Shown here: positions 7,948-21,167 of the stretch, piece by piece
How the letters are laid out: each line of letters begins with the position of its first letter
How positions within the stretch are numbered: position 1 is the stretch's first letter
Virus record (IMG/VR): IMGVR_UViG_3300046722_000164
Span: 1-21,584 of that record
Length of the DNA: 21,584 bases
DNA from: a virus
Strand: one strand, 5' to 3'
Notes under the pieces: generated by a model
Told to the model about the DNA's origin: nothing
The model's input: the letters and a program-made list of their open reading frames with translations, nothing else
Database searches by the model: none
Translations under genes and position numbers: made by a program

Positions 7948-10715
7948 GCGCTGCGAGCCTCCAGGGTCTGGATGCGTTGGGTCAGCTCCTTGATGGCGTT
8001 CACCAGGGCCGCGATGATCGGCGTGGTCTTGATGCCGAGTGATGGCGCGTCGCTGCCGATCCCGCCGGAGCCGTCGGGCAGTTCAAGGCCGATCGCTTCC
8101 ACCGCTTCGGGGATCACGTCGAGCACATCCTGCGCGATGAAACCGAGTTCAGGAGTCGGGGGGCGTTCGTCCGCCGCGCGGCGGTATCGCTCGAACATGA
8201 CCGGCAGCAGACGCAGGATTTCGGCCAGCCCGGTCTGCGCCGGGGCAAACGTGCGCTTGCTGCGCACATCCGAGAGATCGATGTATGCACCGTAACCGGC
8301 AACCGAACTGATGTTGTTGTAAAACAACCAGTCGCTGGGGCGCCAGACCGTGTGCAGGGTCGTGTTGGAATAATAACGCAACCAGCCCGATCCGTCCTCA
8401 GAGCAGGCAAGGGTGTAGTTCGGCAGGAAGTTCATGGCGCCGCCACTGCCGTAGGCGCCGATGTAGGTGTCGTTAGCGCCGGCGAACACGTGACCACGCG
8501 CGGCGACATCGCCGCCCACTGTCACGGTGAAGTTCGTCGTGGTGTTTTCGACAAAACGCCAGGCACCGTCAGCAGGGTTGCGTGCAAGGTAATAATTGTA
8601 ATCGCCGGCGACGTAGAACGTCCCGCTGTTGTTCATCACGGCATTGCAAGTCACCTGGCCGTTGCATGTGATCGCGCCATAACAGGCGACCTGACCGGGA
8701 ACCTCCAGGTTCTGGATGACGGTCCAGCCGGTGGACCGGATGATGGCGAGTGGCTGGTCAATGACGGTGCCGCCGTCATCGAACCGACCGATGGCGAAAT
8801 TGGAGCCGGCATTGCCGCCGGTTTCGGGGTTGGCATCACCGAGCAGGACCTGCCAGCGCGGGGAGTTGCCGGTGAAACCGTCTATTGTCGCGGCATGACC
8901 GGACGCACGCGAGAGGACGAGAGCCGCATCCTGGCCCGATGCGGCGGCCACGCCCAGTCCATTGGTCACGTTCAACGGACCGGAGAGATTGCCGCCCGAT
9001 AGCGGCAGATAAGCACCCAGCGAGGCCGTCACTTGGGCGGCGGTCTGGTATCCCGCAGGGTTGGACGCGGCATAGCGCGAGGTGTCACTCGGATGGACGT
9101 GATCGCCGTGCGCCCAGGCAATGGAGGTTCCCGGGGTTGCCACGCCATCCATGATCGGGGTGGTGGATGACGCCAGCGGAAGGGCGGCGGTCACCTGGGC
9201 GGCGGTCTGATATCCCGCCGGATTGGACGCCGCGTAACGAGACGTATCGATCGGATGGACGTGATCGCCGCGCGACCAGCGCGTGCTGGTGCCGGGGGCG
9301 CTGCTGCCGTTGATGAGCGGCAGGGTGGTGGACGCCAGAGGCACCGCGGCCGTAACAAACGCCGTGGTCGCAATGTTGGTGCTGCTGTCGCCGGCCCCGG
9401 GCGTGGTCGCCGTGGCCGCATGTAAGAGCGCCGTGCCGTTGACCACCAGGGTGCCGCCGATGATCTGCGATCCGGTGACCGTGAGGTCGCCGGTGATCGT
9501 GCCGCCGGTGGTCAGGAGACCGGAGGCGGCCGCCACGTCGGCGCTGGTGAGATGCACATCGCCTGAACGCGTGTTGAACGTAGATACACCGGCCACTGTC
9601 GTCGAGGGGGTCAGGATATCCACCTGCACCAGGCTGCCGGCGAGCAGCGGCGAGAGGAAGGTGACGGTGGACGTGGCGGCATTCAGGGTCCAGTCGCCGC
9701 TGCCAGGGTTGGGCGTGTCCGAAGGCAAGCGCACACCGTTGACGTAGATATCCACCAGTTCGGGGTTGGTAGATGAAATCGTATATACATGCCCGCCCAG
9801 GTCGGGCGTCGCGAGCGGGAAGACGGTCTGGTTGGCGGCTGCCCGGTAGAGAAGGCTCAGGAAGGTGGATTTTACCGGGGTCCAGAACGGCACCCACGCA
9901 GTTCCGTTCCAGAGATAAACCGTTTCGTTTGTGCTGTTGTAGTAGATCGCGCCGATAGGGATCGGATCACCGGTCGATGTCGAGGTTGGCGGCTCCGCCC
10001 AGACACCGAGATACAATTCCGACAACGCACCGAACGCACCGGCCGCCTTGTTTGCCCACCAGCGCGAGGACCAGTGGTCCCCGGTGACACCCATCACCGC
10101 GAGAATGTTCGGCGGAATGGTGTTCGGCATGTGCTCGGCCCATGCCTGCGTCACATCGGCATATGCCTGAGCCTCTGCCGCCGCCCCCGTGGCGTGGTTA
10201 TCGGCGTTGTCCGCGTCAGTTGCCGAAGTTGCCGCGGCGGTAGCCGACAGCCCTGCAGCGCGGGCGTTGTCTCCCGCGATGTTGGAGTTGTTCAGGGAGG
10301 TCCCCGCCGCATTCTGGGCCTGGGCGCTGTAAGTAGAGGCGTTGGCCGCAGAAGTATTCGCAAGTAAAGCGGACTGGCTGGCCGAAACCGCCGATGCTGC
10401 CGCCTGATCCACCAAAGGCTGCACTTCGGCCACCGCATCGGCACCGATTTCGTCGAACAAACCAGGCTGCAGATTGTTCTCGCCGATCACGCCGTCGCGG
10501 ATCGAGCCATCGGTATTAAGAGAGACCGACGCCCAATCGATGGTGTCGTCGATCGCATTATTCGCGCGATCGAATTCCGCATCTAGACGGTCTCCCGGCG
10601 GCGGGGACGTGGGGTTGTTGACTTGCCAATCAGTGAACGAAAACTGCCGCACGGGCGGCGCCGGCATGGGGGCCGAAAGCGAGCCCGTGGTTCGCGGCTT
10701 GACCGAGACCGACAT
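7944..10715 (-). CDS. Long tail fibre with C-terminal S74 intramolecular chaperone
   Basis: 923 residues; the first gene of the structural run, with AAAGGGAAG upstream of the ATG at 10715. The N-terminal part attaches to the tail (FTDWQVNNPTSPPPGDRLDAEFDRANNAIDD), followed by an Ala-rich coiled region (about 105-205) and repeated fibre motifs: STFNTRSGDVHLTSADV, and W..GDHVHP.DTSRYAASNPAGYQT in tandem. The HVH tripeptides resemble the HxH metal-binding repeats of long tail fibres. The C-terminal 109 residues are a peptidase S74 domain: DLSDVRSKRTF contains the predicted Ser815/Lys820 dyad at the same S+5 spacing as endosialidase chaperones, then LGFIAQDVLDVIPEAV and a terminal coiled coil (ALVNAIKELTQRIQTLEA). 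It should trimerise and cleave itself just before Ser815. The receptor is unknown. Confidence 0.92.
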   Translation of the reverse strand: MSVSVKPRTTGSLSAPMPAPPVRQFSFTDWQVNNPTSPPPGDRLDAEFDRANNAIDDTIDWASVSLNTDGSIRDGVIGENNLQPGLFDEIGADAVAEVQPLVDQAAASAVSASQSALLANTSAANASTYSAQAQNAAGTSLNNSNIAGDNARAAGLSATAAATSATDADNADNHATGAAAEAQAYADVTQAWAEHMPNTIPPNILAVMGVTGDHWSSRWWANKAAGAFGALSELYLGVWAEPPTSTSTGDPIPIGAIYYNSTNETVYLWNGTAWVPFWTPVKSTFLSLLYRAAANQTVFPLATPDLGGHVYTISSTNPELVDIYVNGVRLPSDTPNPGSGDWTLNAATSTVTFLSPLLAGSLVQVDILTPSTTVAGVSTFNTRSGDVHLTSADVAAASGLLTTGGTITGDLTVTGSQIIGGTLVVNGTALLHAATATTPGAGDSSTNIATTAFVTAAVPLASTTLPLINGSSAPGTSTRWSRGDHVHPIDTSRYAASNPAGYQTAAQVTAALPLASSTTPIMDGVATPGTSIAWAHGDHVHPSDTSRYAASNPAGYQTAAQVTASLGAYLPLSGGNLSGPLNVTNGLGVAAASGQDAALVLSRASGHAATIDGFTGNSPRWQVLLGDANPETGGNAGSNFAIGRFDDGGTVIDQPLAIIRSTGWTVIQNLEVPGQVACYGAITCNGQVTCNAVMNNSGTFYVAGDYNYYLARNPADGAWRFVENTTTNFTVTVGGDVAARGHVFAGANDTYIGAYGSGGAMNFLPNYTLACSEDGSGWLRYYSNTTLHTVWRPSDWLFYNNISSVAGYGAYIDLSDVRSKRTFAPAQTGLAEILRLLPVMFERYRRAADERPPTPELGFIAQDVLDVIPEAVEAIGLELPDGSGGIGSDAPSLGIKTTPIIAALVNAIKELTQRIQTLEARSA
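9022..9299 (-). repeat. 162-bp (54-aa) tandem repeat in the fibre gene
   Basis: The segments at about 9030-9137 and 9192-9299 are closely similar, 162 bases apart. Each encodes PGTS..W[SA][RH]GDHVHP[SI]DTSRYAASNPAGYQTAAQVTA. The HVH codons lie at 9093-9101 and 9255-9263. Confidence 0.85.
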
Positions 10716-11427: not shown

Positions 11428-11864
11428 CGGTTGTCGCACCATGCTGCCAGGTTCCGCTTGACCCCGGTTTTGCCTATCACGATCGCCTGACGCCACGCTT
11501 GGGCGAACGCCAGGGGTTCGCGTTCGCGTGTCCCCCACATGAGCACGAGCCGGAGACGCATCGGGGACCGCACCGAGGTCGGGAGACCGGTCAGGTTGCG
11601 CCAGACATCGGTGGCCAGCAGATCCTCGGGGAGGAGCCCGAGCCGTTCCATGCCTTCCAATAGCTGACGCTCGGGGCGACCCGCGCGCGGTGGCATGGGA
11701 TAGCCCGGCCCGGCATGGCGCGTGCAGAACGGGGACGCTCGCCGTGCCGTCCTGTTACAGCGGATACACTTGCGCTGGTCTGCCCAGGGCACGCGTTTTT
11801 CTAGGTTCGCCAGCGATGCGGGCGACTGTGGCCGCCGCGACACTTGCCCAGTATTTTCGCTCAT
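11424..11864 (-). CDS. Small protein with zinc-knuckle-like Cys/His cluster
   Basis: 146 residues, first gene of a two-gene leftward pair. Cys33, Cys36, Cys47 and His50 form a C-x2-C-x10-C-x2-H pattern (KCIRCNRTARRASPFCTRH) that could bind zinc. A helical middle (ERQLLEGMERLGLLPEDLL) and basic C-terminus follow. The opening PQSPASLANLE is reminiscent of phage DNA-binding or packaging accessory proteins. The Shine-Dalgarno is weak (ACGGTTAAG). Its promoter should lie in the 100-base divergent gap shared with the rightward AAA+ gene. No family can be named. Confidence 0.6.
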   Translation of the reverse strand: MSENTGQVSRRPQSPASLANLEKRVPWADQRKCIRCNRTARRASPFCTRHAGPGYPMPPRAGRPERQLLEGMERLGLLPEDLLATDVWRNLTGLPTSVRSPMRLRLVLMWGTREREPLAFAQAWRQAIVIGKTGVKRNLAAWCDNR

Positions 11865-11964
11865 CTTAACCGTTGCACCCTTGACAAGTTTAGTTGTGTC
11901 CCTCTTGTTGGCTTCGCCAACTCGGCAACACCCACTCTACACCACACGACAAGGACAACACCAC
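11865..11964 (+). promoter_or_regulatory. Divergent promoter region of the AAA+/VWA unit
   Basis: A 100-base gap between divergent genes. On the plus strand TTGACA at 11881-11886 is a perfect -35, but the -10 at 17-base spacing (CTTGTT, 11904-11909) is poor, so an activator may be needed. A perfect 6-bp inverted repeat, GTTGGC-TTC-GCCAAC (11907-11921), overlaps the predicted -10/start region and could be an operator or a 5' leader hairpin. A good Shine-Dalgarno (AAGGA, 11951-11955) precedes the ATG at 11965. Confidence 0.45.
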
Positions 11965-13434
11965 ATGACACCCAGAGCGTTCGGACGCGCGGCCTTGCGC
12001 CACGCTATCCGCAATCATCCTGACATGCTTTCCGCCTTTCCGCAGGGTTCGCGGGCGGTCGGAAGCCTTACCATCAAAGAACTATTGGCGCTGGCCAGCA
12101 AACTAGGGCTTGACGGCGCCACCATCCTAAACACCGCGCGCAAGGCCCATGCTGAAACGCTAGGCGTTGCCAGTGCGGCGGACGAGCCCGAGGGGGACGA
12201 GCCCGCAGACGAGCCCGAGGGCGAGGGAACCGAGATTGACCCCATAGACGCCGAAGTTGCCGCTATTCGCGATGACATAACCCGGAACGGTTTCGGCGCT
12301 TTGGACGAGCGTTTGCGTGAACTGGTGCGCGAGGCTCGCAAGCCGGCTGTTGAGGTTCCGGTTGTAGCGGCTGTCACCCATGGGATTGTGCAGTCTCGCC
12401 CCACCGGTAAGACCGTGACCTGGGGCGCTGCCTTTGGCGTGACCGGTGCGAACGCGAACAAGACCGCCCAGCTGTGGGACGGTGCGCACCCTGACACGCC
12501 CAAGGTCGACCCGCTTTACGTGTTTCCCGAGCGCGAGACCGTCATTGCCCTGACGCAAATTGCACGGGGTCGCAACGTCTACACGTTCGGTCCGGCGGGA
12601 ACTGGCAAAACGGACTTCGTCGAACAACTCGCAGCAAGGCTGGGGCGCCCGTATGCGTTGATCTCATGCGACGCATCAACGGACGGTCCAACACTTGTGG
12701 GGATGACCGTGCCCGAGGGGGACAAAGTCGGTTGGCAAGATGGCCAGTTGACGCGTGCCATTCAGACCGCAGGCTGCATCCTATGCATTGACGAACCATC
12801 CTTGGCGCGGCCAGGGGCGCTATTCGTTTTGCAGAATGTTCTCGCAAAGCGCGTTCTGTGGTTAGGCGAACGCGAGGGACGCCGCATCAACGTCGCCCCT
12901 GGTGTCGTATTCCTGACAACCGATAACACCAATGGACTGGGAGGGGGTGCACGCCGCGGATACACCGACACAAACCGGTTAAATATGGCTTACCTTGACC
13001 GCTTTGGCGCGCGAATTGACTTCCACTTTCTGCCGGAAATGCAGGAAATATCCGTTGTCTGCTCCCGCGTATCAGGGTGCACGCCAGCCCTCGCCGAGTT
13101 GCTGGTGAAGGCTGCCACGCTGACGCGTGCCGCAGCTGACGCCGAACAAATCACCGCGGGGATAGGACTGCGGCGCTTGTTCGCCTGGGCAGAATTGTTG
13201 ACGGACGGGATCAACCCGGACGACGCATTCCTTGTGTCCATCCTCAACGCCACACCCGATCAGGACAAGGAAACAATCCGCCAGCAATGCTCGCTCGCAA
13301 TCGACGCGTCGACCGTTGCGCGTGCACTCGCCATGCATGGGCAGACCAACACGCGCCAGGGCGTTGACCCGAGCGTATCCAATCCCACTGAAGCCGGGCG
13401 CCGTGCGGCGGCTGACTTTCGCCTCGCCAACTAA
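11965..13434 (+). CDS. MoxR/CobS-like AAA+ ATPase
   Basis: 489 residues from the ATG at 11965, chosen because AAGGA lies 9 bases upstream and earlier in-frame starts fall in the divergent promoter or gene. Residues 1-140 are a non-ATPase extension with an acidic EPEGDEPADEPEGEG stretch, possibly a partner-docking or flexible arm. The AAA+ core follows: Walker A GPAGTGKT (209-216), substrate-pore region STDGPTLVGMTVPE, Walker B CILCIDEPS (D276, E277), sensor 1 LTTDNTNG and LDRFG, the usual arginine-finger context. This is the class of MoxR and of the cobaltochelatase ATPase CobS, which work with a VWA partner to remodel a protein. Here the partner is the next gene, 14 bases downstream. No magnesium- or cobalt-chelatase large subunit is present, so a cobalamin role is unlikely. 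Confidence 0.9.
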   Translation: MTPRAFGRAALRHAIRNHPDMLSAFPQGSRAVGSLTIKELLALASKLGLDGATILNTARKAHAETLGVASAADEPEGDEPADEPEGEGTEIDPIDAEVAAIRDDITRNGFGALDERLRELVREARKPAVEVPVVAAVTHGIVQSRPTGKTVTWGAAFGVTGANANKTAQLWDGAHPDTPKVDPLYVFPERETVIALTQIARGRNVYTFGPAGTGKTDFVEQLAARLGRPYALISCDASTDGPTLVGMTVPEGDKVGWQDGQLTRAIQTAGCILCIDEPSLARPGALFVLQNVLAKRVLWLGEREGRRINVAPGVVFLTTDNTNGLGGGARRGYTDTNRLNMAYLDRFGARIDFHFLPEMQEISVVCSRVSGCTPALAELLVKAATLTRAAADAEQITAGIGLRRLFAWAELLTDGINPDDAFLVSILNATPDQDKETIRQQCSLAIDASTVARALAMHGQTNTRQGVDPSVSNPTEAGRRAAADFRLAN

Positions 13435-13448
13435 GGGAAACACCACAA

Positions 13449-15437
13449 ATGCCGATGTATCGTGAAATCGTGGCCGCGGCGGGAGACACCGCAACCGCCA
13501 TTCTAAGACAACGCACCCGACAGATGCACCAAGTCATCGTCACCACCAACGGCGGGAGCACGGCTAGCGTGAATTGGGGGCATAACGTAGCAGTCACCTT
13601 GAACCTCCCCACCCTGCCCGCCGATACCATGCTGACGCGTGCCGAAGCTGACCGCATCGTCGGTTATATCGCCCATGAATGTTGTCATGTCATGCACACA
13701 GACTGGAACGCATGGATGCGCGCCGTTCACGCGAGTGCCGAGGTCAAACATCTGACGAATTGTCTTGAGGATGTAAGGATCGAGCGCGCGGAAATCGAAG
13801 CCGGGCACTACCCAGCTTTGCGCGGGTTGCTGGGTTCACTAGTGACCCAGAAACACGCCGAAGCCCTAGCCAAGGCGAAGGCCCAGAGTGTGACCATTGG
13901 GACCGAGCGTGCCCACTTCCCGTATGTGTGCGCCGTGCTGGGACGGCTCGGGAATGGCTACAGCATCCCCACAGCCCATGCCTTGGAGCGCGACCTATCC
14001 CCCGCGGTGCGGCGGCTGGTGACCTATGCCTTGCGCAAACTGCCAGGGTGCCAGAACACCGAAGCCGTGCGGCGGCTGGCCATACGGTTGTGCGAGATGG
14101 CGCACAAGGAACGCCAGGAAGCCCAGCAGAAGCCCCAGGAGCCCCAGCAGGGCCAGGGCGAACGCCAGAAGGCCCAGGAGGGCCAGGGCGAACCCCAGGA
14201 GGCCCAGGAGGGCGAGGGCGAGCCCCATGAGGCCCAGAAGGCCCAGGAGGGCGAGGGCGAGCCCCAGGACGCCCAGGAGGGCGAGGGCGGGCCCCAGGAC
14301 GCCCAGGAGGGCGAGGGCGAGGGCGAGGGCGAGCCCCAGGAGGCCCAGGAGGGCCAGGAGGGCCAAGGCACGCCCCAGGAGGCCCAGGAGGGCCAGGAGG
14401 GCCAAGGCACGCCCCAGGAGGCCCAGGAGGGCCAGAGCGAGGCCATAGGTGACCAGCCGGGCGCTGGTAGCGACCAAAGCACGGGCGGGGCACCCGAGCC
14501 CGAGCCCGAGCCCGAGGGCGAGCCTATCGACCCTGACACCATGCAGGACATGGTCCGCGCGCTGGCCGAACGAAACGGGATTGAGGACCCGGACGGCCCG
14601 CGCGAGCATTATTCCCACCTGTTGCCGCTATGCCGTGTCGTGCAGGTGCGAGTTCAACGCTTTCCCGCCGACATGAATACCCATGCCGTGCAGACGCTCA
14701 ATAGCGCCATGCCCCGATGCGGCCTGTTGCATGGGCAGGTCGCGCGGATGCTGGTGGCGGATGAGCAATCCCGCCGCACCAATCACGAGACCAGCGGACG
14801 GCTAGACCGTCGCGCGCTGGTGCGGATGCGGACGGGTGCGCCCGACGTTTACGCCCATCGCGAGAACACCCCTGCCGTGCTGACCGCGCTGGTGTTGCTG
14901 GTAGACCAGTCATCCAGCATGGACATGGGCGAGCGTATGCCAATGACCCGGCTGGCCACATGGGCGCTGGTGAAGGCCGCAGAAGATGCGGGCGCCAAGG
15001 TGGCGGTTGTCGGTTTCACTTCGCCGAGTGGCGCTGGCTATGACGAGTGCGACCTACGCACCATGAAGGACTGGGACACCCCGGCACGCGATGCCGCCGC
15101 GCGCATCGCCACCATGGGAACCTTCATGGGCACGCCCCTCGCTCCTGCCATCATCACGGGGGCGGAGATGACCCGGGAGGTTGCGCACTGCACCCGCCGC
15201 ATCGTCATGGCGCTGACCGATGGCCAGTGCAATTTCAGGGCGGAAGCCGTGACCAGCGCCTGCCGCATCGCCGCCAGTATGGGGGTTGAAGCCGTCGGCA
15301 TCGGCATGAACTGCGAGAAGGTTATCAAGGCCTTCCCCGATGGCTACAGCGTGAATATCGAAGATATGAACCAGCTTGCCGCAACCGGCCTGGGGACCCT
15401 GGTGCGGATGCTGGAGGACGCCGACCGCGGGCGCTAG
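13449..15437 (+). CDS. CobT-like VWA protein with HExxH motif and repeat linker
   Basis: 662 residues; AAGGGAAA precedes the ATG at 13449. Three parts are visible. Residues 1-220 are a zincin-like domain with HECCH (76-80) and NCLEDVRIE (104-112), the HExxH...E arrangement of metallopeptidase-like N-termini found in some VWA proteins. Residues about 221-360 are a low-complexity linker of QEAQEGEGEP-type repeats, strongly acidic. Residues about 375-662 hold a VWA domain whose MIDAS is complete: DQSSS (D486, S488, S490), T562 in MGTPLAP and TD at 590-591. VWA domains of this class dock onto a hexameric MoxR/CobS-type ATPase, here the preceding gene. Whether the HExxH site is catalytic or structural cannot be told from sequence. 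Confidence 0.9.
   Translation: MPMYREIVAAAGDTATAILRQRTRQMHQVIVTTNGGSTASVNWGHNVAVTLNLPTLPADTMLTRAEADRIVGYIAHECCHVMHTDWNAWMRAVHASAEVKHLTNCLEDVRIERAEIEAGHYPALRGLLGSLVTQKHAEALAKAKAQSVTIGTERAHFPYVCAVLGRLGNGYSIPTAHALERDLSPAVRRLVTYALRKLPGCQNTEAVRRLAIRLCEMAHKERQEAQQKPQEPQQGQGERQKAQEGQGEPQEAQEGEGEPHEAQKAQEGEGEPQDAQEGEGGPQDAQEGEGEGEGEPQEAQEGQEGQGTPQEAQEGQEGQGTPQEAQEGQSEAIGDQPGAGSDQSTGGAPEPEPEPEGEPIDPDTMQDMVRALAERNGIEDPDGPREHYSHLLPLCRVVQVRVQRFPADMNTHAVQTLNSAMPRCGLLHGQVARMLVADEQSRRTNHETSGRLDRRALVRMRTGAPDVYAHRENTPAVLTALVLLVDQSSSMDMGERMPMTRLATWALVKAAEDAGAKVAVVGFTSPSGAGYDECDLRTMKDWDTPARDAAARIATMGTFMGTPLAPAIITGAEMTREVAHCTRRIVMALTDGQCNFRAEAVTSACRIAASMGVEAVGIGMNCEKVIKAFPDGYSVNIEDMNQLAATGLGTLVRMLEDADRGR
14341..14440 (+). 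repeat. 39-bp tandem repeat in the VWA linker
   Basis: Identical 39-base units occupy 14341-14379 and 14380-14418, followed by a partial third. Each encodes the 13-residue unit EAQEGQEGQGTPQ in rotated phase. Less regular 6-18-base repeats of the same type extend from about 14105 to 14525. The antisense strand translates to Leu/Ala- or Pro-rich low-complexity strings that are not genes. Confidence 0.85.
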
Positions 15438-15877: not shown

Positions 15878-15911
15878 ACCGGGGGGACGGCCCAGCGCCG
15901 TCCCCACCGGT
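15878..15911 (+). terminator. Strong hairpin ending the rightward unit
   Basis: A 9-bp stem GGGGACGGC (15883-15891) with GCCGTCCCC (15897-15905) and a CCAGC loop, extended by ACCGG/CCGGT with one bulged A. It starts 3 bases after the last stop codon of the unit. There is no T-tract, so it is either a GC-rich, possibly Rho-assisted terminator or an mRNA 3' stabiliser. Confidence 0.55.
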
Positions 15912-15955: not shown

Positions 15956-16010
15956 GGCACATCAGCCACCCACTGTGGCACATCAGCCACTCACCGCGGC
16001 ACATCAGCCA
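15956..16010 (+). repeat. Three iterons with exact 21-bp period
   Basis: GGCACATCAGCCA begins at 15956, 15977 and 15998, each followed by C, C and A. The 21-bp spacing equals two helical turns, so a binding protein would sit on one face of the DNA. They lie immediately before an AT-rich tract, the usual layout of an iteron-type replication origin. The same core appears singly at 16670, 17471 and 18796. Confidence 0.85.
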
Positions 16011-16226
16011 AAAACACAACAAAGACAGATATACGGCTTACAGATCACCCCATTAGAGAGAGGGAGTGCGATTTGTGTAGTTTTTTAACAAGACCGTTAT
16101 TTTCCATAACAAGATAACTAAATCATTTTATATAGAATTCCTGAATGACTGATCTGTAAATCTGTAAAACTCTAGCTTTCTCTAAGGTTCAGATTGTTTT
16201 ACATTTCGGTTACAGATTACTGTTTC
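16011..16226. other. AT-rich island, putative replication origin
   Basis: This 216-base non-coding gap between convergent genes is much richer in A+T than anything else here: 47 of 60 bases in 16081-16140 and 40 of 60 in 16141-16200. TTACAGAT occurs four times (16038-16045 and 16210-16217 on plus; 16150-16159 and 16160-16167 on minus); the copy pair at 16038-16047 and 16150-16159 is inverted and ten bases long (TTACAGATCA). An inverted repeat GTTAT/ATAAC lies at 16096-16110. Next to iterons and a primase-helicase, it is best read as the unwinding element of an origin. No clear DnaA box was seen. Confidence 0.6.
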
Positions 16227-18674
16227 CTAGTGCTTTGTGTTGTGTCCGATGGACGGACCCAAAAGGTTTGCGACTTTGGCTATTTCGTCGCGACCCAACA
16301 GTTTGTATTCTTTAACAAATCGTAACGCCCACACGCGGGTCTGCCGACCTTGCACGAGCACGGGCGACCCATCAAACAGTTGTGTTCCACCCACCCGAGC
16401 CAACCGTCTGCCAATGCTGACGGGGTGCAACTGCGTCGGGCTCACGCTGAACCGTCCCTCGCGCTGCGCCTGCAACATGCGGTCCCTGACAAAGTCCACC
16501 GTGACCACATCGGGCATCGCCTCGACCGCCGGATAAACCGCCGCGATGGTCTCGGTCAGCCACACATCCACCGGGTCCTGGCTTTCCTCGATCATCACCT
16601 GCTTGGCCTCGGTCATCGGCGCAATCCCGCTCAGCACGGCCTTGCGCGCGTCGGGCATGGTCTCCCAGCGGCACATCAGCCACTCGGCCACCAGCGCCAG
16701 CCCCTCCTGCTGCTCGAACCACCGCACCAGCCGCGCATAGTCCCCTGATGGCCAGCGCGTGACGTGCGCGCGATCCAGCACCAGGAACCGGCGGTCCCCT
16801 TCCTCCAGCCGTAGCGGCACCGCCTCGTTCGACGTGATCCATGCCATCACCGTGTTGCGGGCTTGGTAGGGCACGCCGTATTTCGGATTGATCGGCAACC
16901 ACTCCTTGCCCAGGTCGAACGCGTGTTTCAGCCGCGCCATCTGGTCGTGCGGCGTGAACGACCCCCGCGTGGTCTGCCGGGTCTCGTTCATCTGCACCAA
17001 GCGCAGCGCCATCCACTCCGAGAACCCTGACGCCATCGCGTCCCCGCGCAGCACTTGGGCCTGCTGCTCGCCCAGTGCCTTCATCACCGGCAACAGGATC
17101 AGGTCCTTGCCAATCCCCTGCTGCCCGGTCACCACCACCTGCCAGCCGCCTTTGATCCCGCTCCCCAGCACCATCGCCAGCCAGTCCAGCACAATCCGGC
17201 CAAGCTGCCATTCCTCCAGGGTCGCGCCACCGATCACATGCCAGAACAGGTCCAGCCAGGGTCTGACCGCGTCGTCGTCCACTGGCGAGCCAGCCAGTGG
17301 ACGGGGGACCGGGCGCCACAGGTTGCACAGCCGCTGGCGATTGTGCAGCACGATCTGTGCCTCGCCCGGCCACCAGATCACCCCGTCCACATGCCGCCCT
17401 CGCCGGTCATGCAGATACCAAGTGCCCGGTGGCACCAGCCGCCGCTGCCGTCCCGTTCCGGTCATCGGCAGCACATCAGCCAGCCGGCGTAACCACTCGG
17501 TGTTGATCGCCCGGTCCTTGAGCATGACCTGCTTGTCCACGTCCCAGAACGCGTCCCGCGGACGCAGGTAGACGAACCGCGCGAAGAACGCCCGCTCGTC
17601 GTCGGTCTCCACATGCGCCGGCGGCAACGGCACATCCGCCGGATCCACCGGATCGAACGCCACGTCGATCAGCCCCGAGAGCCCGCCACTCTCCTCGCGA
17701 AGCATTTCCTCCAGCCTCTGTTCGACATGCTCGGCGGTGCGGTCCCGGCAGTGCCCGTGGTGGCACTCGAAGCGCTGCAACACGGGGACATACGCCGTGC
17801 CCGTGGTGGCGCGGTCGGTGTGCTCGTCCACCCACGGGCATAAGATGTCATACCCGCGGCCCATCGCCGTGGCGCGTGGTCCCCCGAGCACCAGGTCGAG
17901 CTTGCGCATCGCCTTGAACAGGATGTCCTGCTCGGCGAGCTCGTCGATCGCTGCATCACCCGCGAGCGACCTGGCTGGAGCCGGGTGGGCAAAACCCTCG
18001 ACAGGTTTTGCCCCATCGACTTCGCAGGGGACACCATCGGGGGACACGGGGGACACGCCCAGCCTGGCGCAGATCTCGGGTGTGAGATCCAGCACCAGGT
18101 TCGGCGCCCAGTGAGTGAGCCCCACCACGAACCCACCTATCGCTGCGAATGCCGGCTTGTGGTTGCGCCCCACCGGCAGCCGGAGATAGCGCGTGGCATC
18201 CCGCATCCCCGGATCCTTGCCGTCCTGGCCCACCAGGAAGCCCACCAGCGCCTTGGTGAAGGCTTTGACCCATCCAGCGTCCCGCACCAGCGTGGCCAGC
18301 CTGTAGCCCCACTGCTCGTTCCCTGGCGAGGTCTCCATCCGGTAGGTCGGCACCCCCAGCAGGTCCACCACCTTAGCCGGGTCGATCTTAGGCCCAACGT
18401 CGTCCACGCCGAGCACCACCCAGCGCTCCAGCACGGGTCCCTGGCGGACCTTGCCGCCGATGAACAAGCTGACCGTAAAATAGTTGTTGTCCCCCGGGCG
18501 CAGCCGGCGCGTGGCCGCGGGACCGCCGCCCCAGGCGCCACCACGCTTCGGGTCCCCGCGGAACCCGGTAACGTGCATCCGCCCCCAGTCGGCGTCACCG
18601 GCGATCGCACGGAGGAATTGCTCGTTGGTGTCGGGCCAGGGCAAAGCGGGGGCGTTGCCATCCGTGCGTGTCAT
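16227..18674 (-). CDS. Phage primase-helicase (AEP-like primase plus SF3/DUF5906 helicase)
   Basis: 815 residues; GGGAG lies upstream of the ATG at 18674. Residues about 60-200 resemble a RepB/AEP-type primase: a GVDDVG acidic pair (D91, D92), PTYRMETSPGNEQWGY (109-124) and RYLRLPVGRNHK (162-173). A putative zinc-binding cluster follows (Cys279, Cys304, Cys309 with nearby His, in DILCPW and FECHHGHC). The C-terminal half is a D5/DUF5906-type SF3 helicase: Walker A GQQGIGKD (517-524), Walker B-like LVQMNE (559-564), then WITSNEAVPLRLEEGDRRFLVLD. It would unwind and prime DNA at the element's own origin. The gene contains two copies of the iteron core, and a third lies 122 bases upstream of its start. 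The exact sub-family is uncertain. Confidence 0.9.
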   Translation of the reverse strand: MTRTDGNAPALPWPDTNEQFLRAIAGDADWGRMHVTGFRGDPKRGGAWGGGPAATRRLRPGDNNYFTVSLFIGGKVRQGPVLERWVVLGVDDVGPKIDPAKVVDLLGVPTYRMETSPGNEQWGYRLATLVRDAGWVKAFTKALVGFLVGQDGKDPGMRDATRYLRLPVGRNHKPAFAAIGGFVVGLTHWAPNLVLDLTPEICARLGVSPVSPDGVPCEVDGAKPVEGFAHPAPARSLAGDAAIDELAEQDILFKAMRKLDLVLGGPRATAMGRGYDILCPWVDEHTDRATTGTAYVPVLQRFECHHGHCRDRTAEHVEQRLEEMLREESGGLSGLIDVAFDPVDPADVPLPPAHVETDDERAFFARFVYLRPRDAFWDVDKQVMLKDRAINTEWLRRLADVLPMTGTGRQRRLVPPGTWYLHDRRGRHVDGVIWWPGEAQIVLHNRQRLCNLWRPVPRPLAGSPVDDDAVRPWLDLFWHVIGGATLEEWQLGRIVLDWLAMVLGSGIKGGWQVVVTGQQGIGKDLILLPVMKALGEQQAQVLRGDAMASGFSEWMALRLVQMNETRQTTRGSFTPHDQMARLKHAFDLGKEWLPINPKYGVPYQARNTVMAWITSNEAVPLRLEEGDRRFLVLDRAHVTRWPSGDYARLVRWFEQQEGLALVAEWLMCRWETMPDARKAVLSGIAPMTEAKQVMIEESQDPVDVWLTETIAAVYPAVEAMPDVVTVDFVRDRMLQAQREGRFSVSPTQLHPVSIGRRLARVGGTQLFDGSPVLVQGRQTRVWALRFVKEYKLLGRDEIAKVANLLGPSIGHNTKH
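16670..16683 (+). repeat. Iteron copy inside the primase-helicase gene
   Basis: GGCACATCAGCCAC, identical over 14 bases to the first two array units and in the same orientation. On the coding strand it encodes W-L-M-C within EWLMCRW. Confidence 0.7.
17471..17482 (+). repeat. Second iteron core inside the primase-helicase gene
   Basis: GCACATCAGCCA, 12 bases of the iteron core in the same orientation. Here it is read in a different frame, encoding the L-A-D-V-L part of RRLADVLP, so protein similarity does not explain it. Confidence 0.6.
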
Positions 18675-18795: not shown

Positions 18796-18808
18796 GGCAC
18801 ATCAGCCA
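18796..18808 (+). repeat. Iteron copy upstream of the primase-helicase gene
   Basis: GGCACATCAGCCA, a full 13-base match to the array and in the same orientation, 122 bases upstream of the primase-helicase start. A copy here could let an origin-binding protein control this gene, or form a second contact for DNA looping with the array about 2.8 kb away. Confidence 0.7.
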
Positions 18809-18931: not shown

Positions 18932-19438
18932 TCAGCTACGCTCTTGGTCCTGCACCAGCCCGAAGTCCAACAGGAATTTCATCAGCGCCATTCCCTGTAT
19001 GAACGGCAGGACCGCGTCCAGCTTGACCTGCATCGTGCTGTCTGAGCGCACCCGGCACGAGAACACGTCCGAGATGACCGGCGCGGGAGGACTGAGCGCC
19101 AGCGCCTGTCCCCCGTTGGCTCGCACCTGCTCGGCGAGCGCCACCGCACGCTGCGCCGGTCCCGGCTTGGATTTTTTGGCAGGTCTGTCTCTGCCGCTGC
19201 CGTGCGGCACTATGGTGATTCCGTCAAACACCTCGGCGGGCACGCCCAGCTTGTCGATCAGGTCATTCCGCGCGCTCGCATTCGGACCGTTGACCCCGCG
19301 GATCCAGTTATACACCCGCACCATCTGCCGCTGTTCATAGCCGAGTAACGTGGTCAACTCACTGGCGCTGGGGATTTTGAGCGCCTTCATGCGCGCGTGG
19401 ATTGCGGCGCTGACCTTTGCGGTGTCTTGCTTGTTCAT
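18932..19438 (-). CDS. Putative DNA-binding protein, HTH-like N-terminus
   Basis: 168 residues from the ATG at 19438, which overlaps the previous stop as ATGA and has AAGGAAAG upstream. Residues 1-70 look like a helix-turn-helix of XRE type (SAAIHARMKALKIPSASELTTLLG, then VYNWIRGVNGPNASARNDLIDKLGVPAEVF). A Lys/Pro/Ser linker follows (about 80-95) and then a less clear C-terminal domain ending in FLLDFGLVQDQERS. It is the last gene of the integrase-side cluster and lies just before the primase-helicase gene. It might regulate that gene or act as an accessory replication or partition factor; the iterons would be a natural target to test. The family is not recognised with certainty. Confidence 0.6.
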   Translation of the reverse strand: MNKQDTAKVSAAIHARMKALKIPSASELTTLLGYEQRQMVRVYNWIRGVNGPNASARNDLIDKLGVPAEVFDGITIVPHGSGRDRPAKKSKPGPAQRAVALAEQVRANGGQALALSPPAPVISDVFSCRVRSDSTMQVKLDAVLPFIQGMALMKFLLDFGLVQDQERS

Positions 19439-19935: not shown

Positions 19936-21030
19936 TCAAGCCGCCAGCCCCCGAGGACGATTGACGATGTCGTGCAGGTGCGCCGGCTGGAGATGCGCGT
20001 AAGTCTCCTCCACCGTCTTGACGCTGTCCCCCAGCATCTTGGCGATGTGCAGCAAGGGCACGCCATCCTGCGCCGCGTGCGAGGCCCAGGTGTGCCGCAT
20101 CACATGCGCAGTCGCCCACGGCATCCCGATGCGCTCGATGAACTTGTCATATATGCGCCGGTATTGTTGCGAGAACAGCTTGCCACTCGGGCGCGCGTGC
20201 GGTCGCAGTATCGGCAACAGGCGATCGGAAATCGGCACCACCGCGCGGCGTTTGCGGGAGACCTTCATGGCGGGATCGCGCAGGTCGATCAGCCGTGCGT
20301 TGAAGTCAATGCGGTCCCAGGTCAGCCCGAGGATTGCGCCTTTGCGGGCCGCGGTTTCCAAGCCGAGGGCGACAAACAACGCGAGTTCGCCGCCCTCGCT
20401 TTGTGCGGCCTGCCAAAAGAACTGCTCTTGTTTCCGATCCATAAACAACACGCGGGGATGACTTTGCTTCGGCAGTTCGATCATCGGCACCACGCTACGG
20501 TCGATCAGCTTTTTCTTAGCCGCGTAGTTAAGCGCGGCCACCAGGGCGCCGAGTTCTCGCCTGAGCGAACCATCTTTCAAGGCGCTACCTGTGCGGCGGT
20601 TGGTGCGGGCGGTCTTGTAGTTGCGTATGACCTGATCGGTCAGGTCTGCGGGCGTCAAGCCACCGAGCATGGGCTTCACCTGGGCGAGGATATAATACAA
20701 CGACATCGGTGGCTGGACGTTGCGCCCCATCAGATAGGTGTCGATCACGTCAGTGATCGTGACCCGCGTGCGAGGACCGGTCGCCTGCTCGCTTTCGGTG
20801 GCCTGCGTCAGCCACTCGTTGAGTTCGCTCTCAGCCTGCGCGTGATCCTTAGTCTTTGTGGAAAAGGTTTTAGAGCGCCAGCCACCGGTTTTTTCGTCGC
20901 GGATGTTGTAGACAATTTGCCAGTAACCTTGCTCGTTGGCTTTGAGCCGTGAGGTCCGGAGGACCGAATTTTCGCTAAGTGCACGAGACGCGACCGTGCT
21001 GCCGTTTGGGCCGATGTGGTGTTGAGCCAT
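19936..21030 (-). CDS. int: Tyrosine-type site-specific integrase
   Basis: 364 residues, a normal length for phage integrases. It catalyses integration and excision at att sites. An N-terminal arm-binding-like segment (EQGYWQIVYNIRDEKTGGWRSKTFSTKTKDHAQ) is followed by a SAM-like core-binding domain (about 90-185) and a catalytic domain. Visible catalytic landmarks are the first Arg in ETAARKGAILGL, Lys in MKVSRKRR, H309-x-x-R312 in HVMRHTW, and the nucleophile Tyr344 in VEETYAHL. The start at 21030 lies within the 3' part of the upstream HTH frame. An attachment site cannot be identified in the window; it may lie outside. Confidence 0.95.
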   Translation of the reverse strand: MAQHHIGPNGSTVASRALSENSVLRTSRLKANEQGYWQIVYNIRDEKTGGWRSKTFSTKTKDHAQAESELNEWLTQATESEQATGPRTRVTITDVIDTYLMGRNVQPPMSLYYILAQVKPMLGGLTPADLTDQVIRNYKTARTNRRTGSALKDGSLRRELGALVAALNYAAKKKLIDRSVVPMIELPKQSHPRVLFMDRKQEQFFWQAAQSEGGELALFVALGLETAARKGAILGLTWDRIDFNARLIDLRDPAMKVSRKRRAVVPISDRLLPILRPHARPSGKLFSQQYRRIYDKFIERIGMPWATAHVMRHTWASHAAQDGVPLLHIAKMLGDSVKTVEETYAHLQPAHLHDIVNRPRGLAA

Positions 21031-21167
21031 GAGTTTAGATCTTCTTCGCGGATGAGGGGTGGTCGTCCAGGGATGAAAGGCAGCGCCCCGGTGGCCCGGA
21101 GACGCGCGACCTTTTTGGTGCTGCAGCGTAGGCGCTTAGCGACCTCGTCTTGGGTGAGGAGGTTCAT
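20808..21167 (-). CDS. Excisionase-like HTH protein overlapping integrase
   Basis: A 119-residue frame with GAGGA upstream of the ATG at 21167. Residues 1-49 are a clear MerR/HTH_17-type excisionase-like domain: LLTQDEVAKRLRCSTKKVARLRATGALPFIPG, then LIREEDLNSWL. The rest (about residues 47-119) is read out of frame across the start of the integrase gene and has no recognisable features, so it may be a non-conserved tail. The 223-base overlap is unusual. Together with the neighbouring integrase and regulator this fits an excision-control protein. It overlaps the upstream regulator by 32 bases. Confidence 0.65.
   Translation of the reverse strand: MNLLTQDEVAKRLRCSTKKVARLRATGALPFIPGRPPLIREEDLNSWLNTTSAQTAARSRLVHLAKIRSSGPHGSKPTSKVTGKLSTTSATKKPVAGALKPFPQRLRITRRLRANSTSG

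Follow-up and report, generated by a model that had tools for sequence, protein, structure and literature searches.

Two classes of repeats behind the gene of a primase-helicase form a probable replication origin in a soil phage

In pRN1 of Sulfolobus, a stem-loop located just behind the gene of an AEP-SF3-wHTH protein is required and iterons are not present, while the Bordetella phage BIP-1 has a similar stem-loop, its putative origin, behind the corresponding gene (PMC4234260, PMC3869888). The initiator helicases of SaPI and SCCmec elements bind short repeats just behind their own genes, and they do so by the helicase C-terminal domain (PMC7581432). The iteron origins of theta plasmids and the origins of lambda-type phages consist of direct repeats by an AT-rich unwinding region, with the initiator gene adjacent (PMC4980987, PMC7466680). 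The alpha protein of satellite phage P4 has primase and helicase in one protein and binds origin repeats (PMC4234260). Here we describe a phage locus that is probably a replication origin as well, with two sets of repeats that follow the gene of its presumed initiator.

The DNA analysed, referred to as the window, is IMGVR_UViG_3300046722_000164, a 21.6-kb IMG/VR fragment of a soil phage, positions 1-21,584. It carries a tailed-phage gene set with terminase, tail fibre, an AAA and VWA pair, integrase and repressor, and the features of interest are collected in Table 1. The primase gene runs leftward and the VWA operon rightward, and since they end on opposite sides of an AT-rich island, the region that holds the repeats and the island is a convergent gap. 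The order of primase and VWA is kept in relatives. The pair of AAA (CbbQ/NorQ-like) and VWA (CobT-like) genes (11722-15437) is conserved in the phage clade, and the interior of the VWA gene (14133-14435) contains long imperfect CCAGGAGG/GAGGGC repeats. In addition, the tail-fibre gene has a 162-bp tandem duplication (9024-9353), and a GC-rich hairpin without a T run, GGGGACGGC...GCCGTCCCC (15884-15905), directly follows a small rightward ORF.

Table 1. Positions of the repeats, the AT-rich island and the neighbouring genes in the window
Feature	Position	Strand	Remark
VWA (CobT-like) gene	13449..15437	+	convergent neighbour of primase gene
Iteron copy	15956..15968	+	exact match; TGGCTGATGTGCC on primase strand
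Iteron copy	15977..15989	+	exact match
Iteron copy adjoining AT island	15998..16010	+	exact match
AT-rich island, presumed DNA unwinding element	16011..16226	.	directly after primase stop
Arm repeat ATCTGTAA, arm C (about 16022-16047)	16038..16045	-	
AT-rich core between arms B and C	16048..16150	.	
Arm repeats ATCTGTAA, two in tandem, arm B (about 16151-16170)	16152..16167	+	
Arm repeat ATCTGTAA, arm A (about 16196-16219)	16210..16217	-	
Primase-helicase (replication protein) gene	16227..18674	-	stop codon at island edge
Exact iteron copy within primase gene	16670..16682	+	encodes W-L-M-C of EWLMCRW
Distal exact iteron copy	18796..18808	+	122-134 bp upstream of primase start codon
Small HTH-like protein (by eye)	18932-19438		ends 123 bp from distal iteron copy 18796
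Tyrosine integrase gene	19936..21030	-	neighbour outside origin
Repressor	at 21136		

The first-pass annotation of this DNA had noted three copies of the 13-mer GGCACATCAGCCA with a 21-bp period, and we found all three to be exact. Two additional exact copies absent from that annotation, one within the primase gene and one upstream of it, lie on the same strand as the array. This gives five exact copies in the window, all on the plus strand, against 0.01 expected; no shuffle reached five, and in a set of 200 shuffles three copies were the most seen for any 13-mer. Together with its flank, the copy in the primase gene shares 21 identical nt, GTGGCTGATGTGCCGCTGGGA on the primase strand, with the array at 15956-15976. 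It encodes M-C where relatives have mostly I-R, their usual reading at this place being EWLIRRW. Given the shared 21 nt and the M-C replacement, it looks as if the array was seeded from the primase gene, or the reverse. No sigma-70 promoter was detected by consensus at the distal copy, which is the counterpart of the upstream copies that relatives have at -139 to -220.

The 216-bp AT-rich island pointed out in the annotation adjoins the array and is 66.7% AT. Its best 150 bp have an AT fraction of 0.713, whereas the runner-up elsewhere in the window reaches 0.533, and a duplex stability check revealed the island to be the least stable part of the window (-1.164 kcal per step over 150 bp, compared with -1.371 for the segment ranked second). 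The island also has repeats of its own, as had been claimed: ATCTGTAA occurs four times, always inside the island, where 0.09 copies were expected in the whole window. Two of them lie in arm B, whose orientation is opposite to that of arms A and C. The island had further been placed next to a primase-helicase gene, and the two are indeed adjacent, but it is the stop of the gene rather than its front that faces the island. A check of GC skew gave a weak signal with extremes that were not consistently at the repeats or the island. DnaA boxes were not in excess, as their total count was at chance and the sites in the island all had one mismatch, and an Rfam search returned no match.

An AT-rich region with repeats might also be read as the attachment site of the integrase. 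The attP sites of tyrosine integrases are typically AT-rich with repeated arm sites, and the integrase gene is located 3.7 kb away. However, the primase gene stands between the island and int, no tRNA gene was found in the window, and the island is kept in G010 and G025, the two of 17 related records that lack a PF00589 integrase match. We therefore regard an attP at this position as extremely unlikely.

In the replication protein we distinguished an AEP primase domain (residues about 1-206), a Cys/His cluster (C279-H285-C304-H306-C309) and an SF3 helicase (about 430-690); from the order of helices and strands in the predicted secondary structure, residues about 700-785 look like a winged helix. 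The model of the N-terminal part had a pLDDT of 86 and the full-length model a moderate 67. The predicted fold of the AEP domain resembled cyanophage S-2L PrimPol (Foldseek E 7e-6, VIA Z 13.2) and RSF1010 RepB' (Foldseek E 3e-5, VIA Z 11.8). For the predicted fold of residues 350-785, the best structure match was the C-terminal region of NrS-1 polymerase (Z 17.8), followed by poxvirus/ASFV D5-type proteins and the SaPI5 primase-helicase (Z 11.7). The NrS-1 primase-polymerase (PDB 6k9c, 6lrb) is the closest solved structure to this part, with an identity of only about 15%. In these models an AEP primase and an SF3 helicase are united in one protein, which would be the initiator of the adjacent origin.

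With the primase protein as query no relative was found in IMG/VR, and relatives, which are metagenomic contigs, were retrieved via the terminase (80 loci, 56-86% identity). The primase was present in 19 of the 50 terminase-retrieved records searched, many of them with the gene in convergent arrangement with a VWA gene. In several relatives the contig break falls inside their own VWA gene and the ends have short overlaps; these contigs, though classed as linear, are therefore probably near-complete circularly permuted genomes.

If the 13-mer mattered, it was to be sought in relatives with the same primase. There the literal 13-mer was absent, but homologous diverged repeats occupied the same places. 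A scan of viral contigs for the tandem 13-mer pattern found none, and a scan with a 14-mer found at least 120 stretches, with a single copy in each among the matches listed. In the ~50-kb relatives, the gap behind the primase gene holds an AT core between inverted arms and then a direct-repeat array, whose repeats are 13-18 bp long and spaced by 14-30 bp or irregularly, and a lone iteron copy often precedes the primase gene by about 140 bp. The iterons of relatives, for which consensus sequences were picked by hand once the pattern had been seen, include TTTTCGCATTGTCGCTTT (14-bp spacing, one group), TCGCCGGTATGTCGA, AAACCGCCGTAGGACGA and TGGCTGGTATGACGA. The window's TGGCTGATGTGCCGC agrees with TGGCTGGTATGACGA of G001 at 11 of 15 positions, and the iterons of the window and its relatives look like one diverging family. 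The 21-bp period, from which the annotation had deduced that all iterons face the same side of the helix, is specific to the window, since the relatives have periods of 14, 18 or 22-30 bp or irregular ones. The upstream copy is missing in many relatives and clear arms or iterons in some, and G010, a close relative, has a single iteron pair in inverted orientation. In L228 and L277 the stretch from the iterons to the VWA gene contains further GGGACAGATGGGACAG-type repeats.

Of 84 iteron matches across 25 loci, 83 were on the primase strand. Iteron density per kb was 3.1 downstream of the gene, which holds by construction as the motifs had been taken from the arrays themselves, and 1.47 within 300 bp upstream, to which this does not apply; it was 0.17 in the gene and 0.03 elsewhere. 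Eleven matches in these loci preceded the primase gene by 134-220 bp, with most of them at -139 to -141. Such a near-constant distance from the primase start would fit operators: the array and the upstream copy might be bound by a transcription regulator, for example the 18932-19438 protein or the repressor at 21136, leaving only the AT island and the arms as the origin. The small ORF that ends close to the upstream copy, HTH-like by eye, is consistent with this. On the other hand, the array sits between converging 3' ends with nothing obvious to control, many relatives retain the array without an upstream copy, and conservation of the iterons among relatives does not extend to the gene directly upstream of the primase, which makes the operator reading unlikely, if less so than the attachment site. 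Six ~50-kb relatives scanned whole had clear iteron copies only around the primase, and dispersed repressor sites (stoperators) were rejected on this ground. Promoters of a phage single-subunit RNA polymerase were disfavoured by the clustering around one gene; PF00940, which represents this polymerase, had no match, but neither did its control, and the negative result therefore does not argue that the polymerase is lacking.

In about 14 distinct relatives the inverted arms behind the primase stop scored well above their shuffled versions; the loops that they enclose are typically AT-rich and 47-117 nt long. Folding behind the primase gave z scores of -11.8 in L237, -9.7 in L233 and -3.5 in L232, while no significant fold was found there in L231, a close relative of the window, or in the window island itself (z -0.59 and -0.44), which thus fails to show a stable stem-loop of the pRN1 type. 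The arms of relatives are internally tandem with a 6-10-bp period (summed score 104 compared with a maximum of 68 in 2000 shuffles). Because of these tandem arms and the missing fold in the window and L231, the common denominator, as far as the sequences indicate, is a pair of inverted arrays of short direct repeats and not a stable hairpin. The convergent gap and the long hairpins found there in several relatives could alternatively reflect a bidirectional terminator or an RNA hairpin between converging genes, with repeats that have no role in replication. We consider this very improbable: the loops, mostly 47-117 nt, are not terminator-like, no intrinsic terminator was found at the gap, the island of the window does not fold, and both the direct repeats and the distal copies would be left unexplained. 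Distant homologues in bacterial genomes, and likewise the more distant viral ones, are mostly without arms behind the gene, indicating that the layout is a feature of the clade and not general to such primases. In L380 (Methylocystis rosea SV97), which has a distant homologue (33%), tandem and inverted GTTGCA repeats come just after the primase stop at 12154, but an AT-rich core is lacking.

Judged from alignment of homologues in L231-L246, the same AEP N-terminal half occurs with several helicase modules that look unrelated to each other: the SF3 type of the window, a D5-like type and some with yet other sequences. The iteron AAACCGCCGTAGGACGA is common to L300 and L298 with 44% N-terminal identity and background C-terminal identity, and the window and L281 (G001) have a similar iteron with 50% N-terminal identity and, again, background C-terminal identity. 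In partial Mantel-type tests, iteron similarity was correlated with N-terminal identity given C-terminal identity (rank r 0.36-0.40, p 0.0005-0.001) and more weakly with C-terminal identity given N-terminal identity (r 0.15-0.18, p 0.01-0.02), with hand-curated motifs and shared ancestry only partly controlled, so that the better tracking of the N-terminal primase half than of the exchangeable helicase half by the iterons is a lead and no demonstration. The arm repeats showed no significant covariation with either protein half.

An origin was what the first-pass annotation had proposed, and several features of an iteron origin are present: direct repeats in one orientation beyond chance, an AT region of low stability and an adjacent primase-helicase gene. 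It is the best-supported reading given the AT-rich element, the two repeat classes, the neighbouring primase-helicase and a layout conserved while the sequence diverges, even though relatives have neither the literal 13-mer nor the 21-bp period. From the anatomy of the locus and the precedents named above, we propose how binding, unwinding, priming and replication might proceed. The replication protein would assemble on the inverted arms and melt the AT core, where the AEP domain would prime. The iterons would position or load the initiator, and covariation points to the N-terminal half as the part that recognises them. The upstream copy might serve autoregulation of the primase gene, or pair with the array (handcuffing) and so limit firing. 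A more specific version, which we put forward tentatively as it is rather less likely than not to be correct in full, is an origin with two keys. The AEP half with its zinc-like Cys/His cluster would read the 13-18-bp iterons and the exchangeable helicase half the fast-evolving inverted-arm repeats, so that a helicase could be swapped without loss of origin recognition, and the single distal iteron would tune firing via looping or autoregulation.

The annotation had also suggested that the element may replicate as an episome besides integrating. We found no support for this, since temperate phages commonly carry an origin next to an integrase; a PF00589 integrase was detected in 15 of the 17 related records, and a search of 15 records for ParA was negative. 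The repeats as a partition site of a plasmid-prophage were likewise rejected, with that lack of ParA and a single isolated ParB_N-like match (G018).

Compared with the known systems, the putative origin is like those of pRN1 and BIP-1 in being an element directly 3' of a gene for AEP and SF3 parts, followed in the protein of the window by a C-terminal part that looks like a winged helix, and in keeping its form while the sequence diverges. It differs from them by an island without a significant hairpin, by two repeat classes with further copies inside the gene and ahead of it, and, in the phage relatives, by inverted arms made of 6-10-bp tandem repeats. As in SaPI and SCCmec with their self-loading helicases, short repeats lie directly downstream of a helicase gene, and the helicase part is predicted to fold like the SaPI5 primase-helicase; the likeness is one of fold and layout, and the window adds a longer second set of iterons that tracks the N-terminal half. 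Direct repeats, an AT-rich region and an adjacent initiator gene are shared with theta-plasmid and lambda-type origins. Unlike these, the initiator here would be a primase-helicase, DnaA boxes are not in excess, the arms are inverted around an AT core, and the spacing varies among phage relatives. P4 has a second repeat site, crr, away from its origin. A single primase-helicase protein and repeat copies at a second place are common to P4 and the window, but the primase of P4 alpha is of the TOPRIM type, whereas that of the window has an AEP fold. In sum, the candidate origin unites pRN1-type and SaPI-type ideas, and a second set of iterons, one copy of it distal, comes in addition.

What is known of origins in AEP-helicase replicons comes mainly from pRN1, and the authors of that work wrote that the sequence motifs to which the protein binds had yet to be identified (PMC4234260). 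The phage clade provides a natural panel of about 25 loci with one layout and one primase half combined with several helicase modules. As iteron divergence can be traced across the clade, the question of which domain recognises the origin becomes testable. Our results suggest that the 'stem-loops' of AEP-helicase origins may consist of short binding sites arranged in inverted arrays. If the origin does have two keys, phages could exchange unrelated helicases while keeping origin recognition.
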